The translations under genes and the position numbers were made by a program. A DNA stretch of 64,000 nucleotides from Streptococcus macacae NCTC 11558. GTDB taxonomy: Bacteria; Bacillota; Bacilli; Lactobacillales; Streptococcaceae. The notes below the pieces were generated by a model. It was not told where the DNA came from, searched no databases, and worked only from the letters and a program-made list of their open reading frames with translations. Positions 51,403-53,854 of the stretch are shown one piece after another. Numbering within the stretch: the first letter of the stretch is position 1; every line of letters starts with the position of its first letter. The stretch spans positions 558,001 through 622,000 of the forward strand of contig NZ_AEUW02000001.1 of assembly GCF_000187995.2 (NCBI RefSeq). The letters run 5' to 3'.

Positions 51403-51406
51403 GAAT

Positions 51407-51438
51407 AAAAAGAGTCAAAATACACTGACTCTTTTTAT
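51407..51438. terminator. mbrABCD terminator
   Basis: Perfect 11-bp stem AAAAAGAGTCA (51407-51417) with TGACTCTTTTT (51426-51436). Its A and T flanks could also stop xerS transcripts from the other side. Confidence 0.8.
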
Positions 51439-51559
51439 TATATTATTGGATTAATAGTTAGTACTAATGTTATTACCTTTCTGGGATAATAGACTGGAGA
51501 ATCGAAAATAAAGCAGAAGGGGATGTATAATCAGTTTATTTTACATAAATATTTTTACG

Positions 51560-52630
51560 TTATAATTTATCTAGAGCATCTTTTTGTTCATCATTAACAA
51601 TGTGCGTATAAAGATCGGTTACTTGAGTAGAAGCATGGCCTAATTGATGGCTGACCAAAACCTGTGATTTGGTAGCATCATATAGCCTTGTTGCCAATGT
51701 ATGCCGTAATTTGTGAGGAGTAACACGGATTTTGAAGTCTTCTGAATATTTAGCAACCATTTTTTCGATAGAAGAAGCATCCATACGATTAGGACAACCG
51801 CGATATTCTGATAGAAAGAAAGCTAAATCTGTTTTTTCAGCTTTATAACGACCTTTCCTAATATGAATATAGTTTTCTAAGTAAGGTTTAGCAAAACCGG
51901 CAACATTGACTGAATCGCGTTTTCCGCCCTTACGAGTAACCTCAATAATCATCATATTTAAATTAACATCTTTAAGATCAAGATTAACAGCTTCTGAGAG
52001 TCGGACGCCAGAAGCTAGCAGCAAAGCAATAATAGCTAAATCTCTTTCTTTATTTTTTCGGAAAGATGAAAGGGCACGTTTGGAAAGTTTGTGTTCATAT
52101 TCACAATCAACATATTCTAAAAATGCCATGGTTTCATTGCCTAAAAAGAGTTTTTGCTTAATATTTTCAGCCCGTGCAGCCAATGTTTCTTTTTTCTTTT
52201 TGGTTGCTACCTTTTTCATGACATTTCGATAAAAATAAGGTTCACCAGCAGCATTTTCAACCTCCTCAGTTAAGTATTTATAAAGGCTGGATAGAGCTGA
52301 AAGAGTGCGGTTTATGGTTGTTTGAGAGACACCTTGGCGTTTACTTTGAGCATTTAAAAGAGTACGTTCTCGTAAATATAAAATGAAAGATTCCATATCT
52401 TTTTTACTGAGATTTTCCAAAGTCTCTAGCGGGATATCAGCAAGCTTATTCGCGTCAGAAACATCTGAATCAATTAACCATTCAAAAAAACGGCGATATT
52501 CTTTTAAATACTCATATAAAGTTGTAAAACTGTAAGGAACGGTTAATTTAGATTGATAATATTCCAAAACATACCAGGGCATTAGTTCTTTGAGTTCATC
52601 AATTTTTTCAAGTAAAAGTTCACGCCTCAT
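51560..52630 (-). CDS. xerS: Tyrosine recombinase XerS
   Basis: The protein (356 aa) is the single Xer recombinase that streptococci and lactococci use to resolve chromosome dimers at dif-SL, in place of XerC/XerD. An N-terminal SAM-like domain is followed by the catalytic domain with [10 protein letters not shown] (Arg), [11 protein letters not shown] (HxxR), HQLGHAS and the nucleophile tyrosine in DLYTHI. The ATG has a GGGAG site. The dif site lies 65-96 bases upstream of its ATG, and the xerS promoter overlaps it. Confidence 0.95.
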
Positions 52631-52672
52631 TCTGATATATCTCCCTATATTATATTGATAATTGATATTAGA

Positions 52673-52701
52673 AGTATAACATATCTATAAACATTTTTCA
52701 A
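52673..52701 (-). promoter_or_regulatory. xerS promoter, -35 inside dif
   Basis: On the - strand: -35 TTGAAA (52701-52696), a 17-base spacer, -10 TATACT (52678-52673) preceded by TGT. The -35 box is part of the left XerS arm of dif. Confidence 0.7.
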
Positions 52702-52726
52702 GAAAATTATAGTTTTTCGGAAAGAT
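52695..52726. other. dif: dif-SL chromosome dimer resolution site
   Basis: Two dyad arms, TTTTCAAGAAA (52695-52705) and TTTTCGGAAA (52714-52723), flank a short ATTATAGT centre. This agrees with the 31-bp dif-SL of lactococci and streptococci as I remember it, and lies directly upstream of xerS, its usual place. It marks the replication terminus. Confidence 0.9.
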
Positions 52727-52945
52727 GATAAGATGCAAAATGCAATCAATAATGATCTATAATTCCTTGTTTTTTAGATTTATAAAAAAGTTTAAGAAGA
52801 TAAAATTTTAGAGATATTTGAGAATTGATTGATACTTATTTGATTTTCAAGTTCTATACTTAAATAAAAAAGGAATACAGTTATAAAAAACAGCTAACAC
52901 ATTACATTAATAACATTTTGCTAATTACAAGGAGGTAAAGCAATT

Positions 52946-53854
52946 ATGGAAAAGGTACTTAAAATCAGACACTTGTCCAAACGATATGGACAGCAATTAG
53001 CACTTGATAATGTTAATCTTACTATCCAAAAAGGGGAAATTTATGGATTAATTGGTAAAAATGGTGCAGGCAAAACAACTCTCATTAAGGTCATTACAAA
53101 ACTCATCCAACCAAGTCAAGGGAGTGTTTCGGTCTTTGGTTCTAGCACCCAGAGCGAATGGACACATGCTCTTAAACGTGTTGGCTCTGTGATCGAAACA
53201 CCTGTTGCTCTTAATCATTTGACCGCTCGTCAAAACCTACACTACTACTGCAAGGCGCGTCATATTCCTAATATTGACAAGGTGATTGATGAAAGTTTAG
53301 CATTGGTTGGTCTTACGAATACAGGTAAGAAAAAATTCCGCAGTTTTTCACTTGGTATGAAACAGCGTCTAGGTATTGCTATCGCTTTGATCGTCAAACC
53401 AGATTTTCTCATCTTGGATGAGCCAATTAATGGTCTGGATCCTGTAGCCATCAAAGAATTCCGCCACATGATAAAAAAACTTAACGAAGAACATGGTATG
53501 ACGGTCATTATTTCTAGTCATATCCTATCTGAGCTTTATCAAGTTGCTACTAAGTTCGGTATTATTGAAAATGGTTATATTGTCAAAGAAATTAGTAAGG
53601 CTGACTTTGATACCCAAAGCGAAGACTATATCGTTTTAAAAACTGGTCAAATCAATGAAGCAAGTCAAATCCTTCAGGATAAGATGAATTATCGTATTAA
53701 GGTCATCAACGCGGACAGCGAAATTCATGTGTTCGGACAATCTCATAGTATCAAACGTATTGTCAAAGAACTGGTTGCAAACGCTATTGATATTGATGAA
53801 ATCTATTACAAACGCCAAGATTTGGAAGACTACTTCACACAAATTGTAGATTAA
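52946..53854 (+). CDS. ABC exporter ATPase, peptide resistance/immunity type
   Basis: The protein (302 aa) has Walker A GKNGAGKTT, the signature FSLGMKQRLGIAIAL and Walker B FLILDEPINGLDP, and a C-terminal extension like BcrA or lantibiotic LanF. Such pairs export or exclude membrane-active peptides. A consensus AAGGAGG precedes the ATG. The permease gene follows after 18 bases, and a two-component system lies convergent beyond it. The substrate is unknown. Confidence 0.88.
   Translation: MEKVLKIRHLSKRYGQQLALDNVNLTIQKGEIYGLIGKNGAGKTTLIKVITKLIQPSQGSVSVFGSSTQSEWTHALKRVGSVIETPVALNHLTARQNLHYYCKARHIPNIDKVIDESLALVGLTNTGKKKFRSFSLGMKQRLGIAIALIVKPDFLILDEPINGLDPVAIKEFRHMIKKLNEEHGMTVIISSHILSELYQVATKFGIIENGYIVKEISKADFDTQSEDYIVLKTGQINEASQILQDKMNYRIKVINADSEIHVFGQSHSIKRIVKELVANAIDIDEIYYKRQDLEDYFTQIVD

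Follow-up and report, generated by a model that had tools for sequence, protein, structure and literature searches.

The window, by which we mean the whole 64,000-nucleotide stretch of Streptococcus macacae NCTC 11558 DNA analysed here, carries xerS on the minus strand (51560..52630). The gene encodes a tyrosine recombinase of 356 amino acids. Its product matches the XerS-type equivalog profile NF003462 with a score of 553.7 bits (cut-off 267). Upstream, and also read on the minus strand, is difSL, the 31-bp XerS recombination site (TCTTTCCGAAAAACTATAATTTTCTTGAAAA; 52695..52725). The original prediction correctly placed dif upstream of xerS but its limits, 52695-52726, were one base too long; the 31-mer runs from 52725 to 52695. 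The xerS ATG is 64 bases past the end of this exact 31-mer. The site is single-copy, with 1 genome match to the 31-base pattern when up to 3 mismatches were allowed. In a profile of the 64-kb window only, cumulative GC skew peaks at ~52-54 kb, as expected near the replication terminus. A terminator-like hairpin (51404..51439, found on both strands) lies between xerS and a histidine kinase gene. On the other side is a divergent ABC-transporter gene at 52946. Hence, xerS is most simply read as a single-gene unit, which needs a promoter of its own within 52631-52945.

A candidate promoter is present on the minus strand of this interval. It consists of a −35 hexamer (TTGAAA, 52701-52696), a 17 bp spacer and an extended −10 element (TATGTTATACT, 52673..52683), in which a TRTGn motif, with its TG preceding the −10, is followed by TATACT (52678-52673). 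The −35 hexamer corresponds to positions 25-30 of the difSL 31-mer, so that the whole −35 is dif DNA. The predicted transcription start, marked by conserved −1T and +1A columns, is at 52667/52666 and matches the position, 52666, given previously. The predicted 5′ leader is thus 36 nt long (52631..52666), with a Shine-Dalgarno-like GGGAG at 52645-52641. An overlap of the −35 with the left recombinase arm had been proposed. The overlap stands but the arm is 'left' only on the plus strand of the window; in the published orientation the −35 is the outer part of the right, xerS-proximal, half-site. No other promoter-like site was listed on the minus strand between xerS and the divergent gene. Across the window there are 181 occurrences of TTGAMA and only 2 are followed, 16-18 bp on, by TGnTATAMT (~0.08 expected). 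A simple promoter scan of the window found 11 sites, against 9.7 expected, which is not significant by count alone. The case for the promoter therefore rests on conservation. A search of main texts turned up no published start-site data for xerS.

We compared loci from 80 + 45 Streptococcus and from nine other genera of the family. By a 28-mer search with up to 2 mismatches, difSL was present in 284/284 Streptococcus genomes. There were 187 XerS-like open reading frames in all, 177 of them scoring >400, and 167 of these 177 had an adjacent dif, defined as a site no more than 200 bp from the ATG and with at most 5 mismatches. After merging identical modules, and leaving out the 10 genes scoring >400 with no adjacent dif and the 10 reading frames scoring ≤400, the 167 loci gave 143 distinct modules, which represent Streptococcus and seven other genera. 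Genera g4 and g6 contributed no module with a recognisable dif. Because the genome sets overlap, our counts are of distinct sequences rather than genomes. They depend on the segment compared: 143 for the gene plus a 71-base region, 134 for dif-to-ATG and 118, later 147, for 60-mers.

A −10 element was found in all 143 distinct modules, 17 bp past the −35 position in 138 and 18 bp in 5. Our test fixed T, A and T at positions 1, 2 and 6 and demanded at least 4 matches out of 6; when the 40 bases after dif were shuffled, 8% passed. We also examined 49 further Streptococcus loci, 40 taken from the list of difSL-containing genomes and nine chosen for a low XerS score, odd dif distance or second dif. 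They represent 46 distinct 60-mers, 29 of them new, and 49/49 passed the −10 test at 17 bp. The TTGA of the −35 was intact in each of the 147 distinct 60-base modules that make up the union of both samples. TG precedes the −10 in 127 of the 142 distinct promoters with 17-bp spacing. Thus, the overlap of −35 and dif, which was to be checked in other streptococci, is kept there and in seven other genera of the family too.

Changes at each column were counted by parsimony on a xerS tree built from the 138 modules whose spacing is 17 bp; the 5 with 18-bp spacing were left out. As a neutral yardstick, 30 fourfold-degenerate (silent) xerS sites changed a mean of 38 times. Over the −10 hexamer the counts were 0, 0, 8, 0, 6 and 0, so that positions 1, 2, 4 and 6 are invariant in the 138 modules. 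Within the TRTG motif, the first T changed 7 times and the TG 4 and 4 times. The −1T and +1A columns changed 5 and 11 times. Ten of the 17 spacer columns had 25-33 changes and the four nearest the −35 had 9-19. Upstream of dif, columns changed 18-63 times, bar the base touching dif (3 changes); hence, no other conserved promoter was seen there. As judged from the aligned letters, the pattern is that of a promoter. The spacing between −35 and −10 is 17 or 18 bp although the distance from −10 to ATG spans 6-140 nt. The promoter predicted from the S. macacae DNA alone, TTGAAA/17/TATACT, is therefore confirmed in the sequence, and comparison across modules strongly supports it as real.

Distinct modules fall into two groups by the distance between the end of the −10 and the ATG: 30 have 6-9 nt and 104 have 18-140 nt. 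The short-distance group comprises one S. castoreus module and 29 of the 37 distinct modules from outside Streptococcus, all of the latter in genera g2, g8 and g9 and with only 28-31 nt between dif and ATG. Downstream of the predicted start, a Shine-Dalgarno-like run was seen in 0/30 short-distance modules, 95/96 Streptococcus modules with a leader and 6/8 others with a leader. This is the pattern to be expected if transcription begins at the predicted start. Consequently, in three of the seven other genera we predict a xerS transcript with no leader or almost none. The promoter, its overlap with dif, its conservation and the leaderless form in three other genera are thus shown at the level of sequence.

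Sites resembling difSL also occur on Lactococcus plasmids (56 Lactococcus records in one search and 37 in another), and in the 37-record search no annotated gene lay under the matches. We examined 22 such Lactococcus sites, of which 15 are distinct. The arms are largely conserved in these sites and the core is different. None of the 15 has a −10 at 16-18 bp, which indicates that the −10 belongs to the gene and not to the recombination site. These data bear on whether the conserved block that follows dif could be an accessory element for recombination instead of a promoter. A nearly fixed distance from dif would suit such a role. However, the plasmid sites do without the block, the letters that never vary in it match a sigma-A extended −10, its spacing takes either of two values and the leader pattern fits a start at the predicted position. 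We regard an accessory role as extremely improbable, and treat the block as a promoter below.

At the −35 position the plasmid sites read TTGAAA (9), ATGAAA (2), CTGAAA (2), TCGAAA (1) and TTTATT (1, the doubtful site L206). Since TTGAAA is kept in 9/15 sites that have no promoter, conservation of the arm is no evidence for a −35. The consensus −35 for sigma is TTGACA. This sequence is found in 24/36 distinct non-Streptococcus modules, all from g2, g8 and g9, and in 0/15 plasmid sites. Confinement of TTGACA to promoter-coupled sites argues that the arm serving xerS moved to the sigma consensus in these three genera. Genus g8 is probably Lactococcus, on the basis of IS981 copies and fragments at 95-100% in genomes G239 and G241; the modules of these genomes (L136 and L137) both have TTGACA. 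Among the 15 promoters without TG, TTGACA occurs in 12 and TATAAT in another 2, a covariation with few lineages behind it. The remaining one, L156, is a TTGAAA promoter with neither TG nor TATAAT.

Two further ideas about the arm were set aside. The right arm of difSL is odd in having an extra base and a TTGA that does not mirror the left arm. Promoter need was considered as the cause and rejected, because TTCTTGAAA is kept in 8/15 distinct Lactococcus plasmid sites without a promoter. Similarly, T1 or T2 of the −35 is changed in 5/15 distinct plasmid sites (L206 uncounted) versus 0/147 promoter-coupled modules. We do not press the view that these bases are kept only where a promoter exists, because drift is also seen in the left arms of the plasmid sites. 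With regard to the plasmids themselves, 6 of the 22 sites (L198-L219) precede an annotated Fst-family type I toxin gene by ~100 bp and 5 are just after a plasmid recA. Perhaps they are XerS-dependent plasmid resolution sites. Searches of phages gave no convincing difSL copy (best E ~1) and viral contigs contained 0 exact matches.

The 10 of 177 XerS genes without a recognisable adjacent dif include all three sampled from g4 (L147, L158 and L160, in genomes of 1.2-1.3 Mb). At a minimum of four dif-less loci (L170, L171, L173 and L174) inspection by eye showed a −10-like hexamer immediately upstream of the ATG. Hence, xerS expression is possible without dif. Also by eye, L158 retains TTGGAA, 17 bp and TACAAT with TG. 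The divergent XerS genes L173 and L174 (g8) have a predicted leaderless promoter (TTGACT, 17 bp, TATAAT) with a possible diverged dif directly upstream of the −35. Other loci are rearranged. In genome G053 (L182), ~1.2 kb separates the dif promoter from xerS, with dif and the extended −10 intact. In S. sanguinis BCC31 (L085) and G324 (L193), dif and the promoter are repeated in tandem (80 bp) right at a contig end, which may be an assembly effect. Four loci (L169, L175, L176 and L178; three g8 genomes and one g2 genome) have a second XerS-like phage-integrase gene, of ~350 amino acids, 0.5-0.8 kb upstream of dif. Beyond this gene, at L177 and L178, is a half-dif with a perfect left arm, which suggests dif-targeting elements. 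In genome G251, xerS (L149) is preceded by the right dif arm and the promoter, the left arm having been lost. A complete dif whose right arm is identical (L192) occurs on a different contig. This looks like an element inserted at dif.

We propose that a single sigma-A promoter drives xerS, and that its −35 would be provided by the outer bases of the dif half nearer the gene. This DNA would then have two users. XerS would cover it, and read mainly the inner TTTTC, while sigma would read the outer TTGAMA. XerS on dif would shut out RNA polymerase, so that its own synthesis would be held low; when dif is free xerS would be transcribed. Negative autoregulation of xerS by occupancy of dif is, on balance, the reading that we think probable; use of the −35, occlusion by XerS and homeostasis are the inferred parts of it. 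Block of the xerS promoter by XerS at dif, the central claim of the original prediction, is to be expected on physical grounds and by analogy with prophage integrase genes, where there is tested precedent. That claim went a step further, and XerS supply might be tied to dif occupancy or to a dif synaptic complex.

Structural data for a distant relative of XerS, XerH (5jjv, E 1e-9), are consistent with two users of one arm. XerH is described as covering 10-11 bp of each difH arm, of which the inner 5 are read specifically; its contacts to the outer bases are mostly with the backbone, and a helix sits in the major groove there (PMC5241119). If this can be transferred to difSL through the shared inner TTTTC, the −35 falls in an outer part that XerS would cover but read little. 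RNA polymerase and XerS should therefore exclude each other. There is an exception in that one outer thymine of the left difH arm is reported to be read and needed (PMC5241119). Hence, the outer arm is not free everywhere. Because both the −35 and the −10 are on the gene side of the crossover, exchange by XerS at dif should leave the promoter with xerS. Locus L149 of genome G251 is a possible natural example.

Two observations weaken the case for autoregulation. Extended −10 promoters can work with a poor −35, and the TG found before most of the −10 elements may make the xerS −35 partly dispensable. In S. pneumoniae D39, 449 starts are listed with only a −10 or extended −10 (PMC6212727). Furthermore, XerS is reported to bind the right, xerS-proximal, half-site more weakly (PMC5357621). 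Both points would favour passive sharing, in which the promoter is real and the arm serves as its −35, but XerS is too scarce or too weakly bound to alter transcription. The overlap would then reflect compactness of a gene-plus-site module and not control; the tight spacing of most non-Streptococcus modules, and retention of the arm by plasmid sites without a promoter, agree with this. Conversely, the distribution of TTGACA between promoter-coupled and plasmid sites makes it seem that the −35 matters, and prophage integrase promoters with such an overlap are described as repressed when tested (PMC2951348). We consider passive sharing a possible but somewhat unlikely explanation, and continue with autoregulation as the preferred one.

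Regulation could be more elaborate than occlusion. The promoter may sense whether dif has been duplicated by terminus replication, synapsed or passed by FtsK, and supply XerS as a pulse, shortly before division or in dimer-containing cells. Pcer, in the cer site of ColE1, is a known promoter in a Xer site that is used during dimer formation, and XerS recombination is stated to require FtsK at the septum (PMC5357621). However, the product of Pcer is a small RNA and not a recombinase, and plain occlusion requires no such sensing. State sensing of this kind seems to us very unlikely. Less doubtful, but still unlikely, is that dif carries a dual code, as recombination site and recombinase promoter, with XerS supply set by terminus occupancy, such that each round of terminus replication and each passage of FtsK clears dif and a burst of xerS transcription coincides with the need to resolve dimers. 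On that reading, a Lactococcus transcript that begins at or next to the ATG would have no leader for another layer of control.

To our knowledge, how cells control the level of a chromosome-dimer recombinase has been little explored. Fusion of a promoter to dif in much of the family would be a simple and testable answer, and suggests a reason why gene and site persist as one module. It also bears on the interpretation of dif mutants in these bacteria, since dif mutations may alter xerS expression besides recombination. Among the titles and opening lines of abstracts searched, we found no earlier report of a promoter in dif or of XerS autoregulation. Le Bourgeois 2007, the founding paper of XerS/difSL, might hold a remark, as might Leroux 2011.

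The arrangement described here can be compared with four systems. The module is the same as that of XerS/difSL in streptococci and lactococci, a single recombinase gene beside a 31-bp dif (PMC5357621). The available sections of that review cover adjacency, half-site bias and FtsK dependence, and not a promoter inside dif (PMC5357621). XerH/difH of Campylobacter and Helicobacter is alike in having a single recombinase and a site near the gene (PMC2731167; PMC5241119), at 16-282 bp in 7/12 species (Table 2, PMC2731167), but is described as phylogenetically unrelated to XerS (PMC2731167). The cer site of ColE1 is similar in that a promoter is tied to a Xer recombination site. It differs because Pcer, used in dimers, makes the small RNA Rcd, whereas the xerS promoter makes the recombinase (PMC5357621). 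The closest likeness in regulation is with intS of the KplE1 prophage, where attL overlaps the integrase promoter and the integrase represses its own expression (PMC2951348). Further integrase genes with overlapping promoters of the KplE1 type were predicted and several were tested, according to the same source (PMC2951348). In both intS and xerS the recombinase promoter overlaps the binding sites of its own product, although negative autoregulation is shown for intS only (PMC2951348). At intS, an arm-type site overlaps the −10 and the directionality factor also represses (PMC2951348). Conversely, XerS is a recombinase that resolves dimers for the host, and the predicted −35 is part of the half-site itself.
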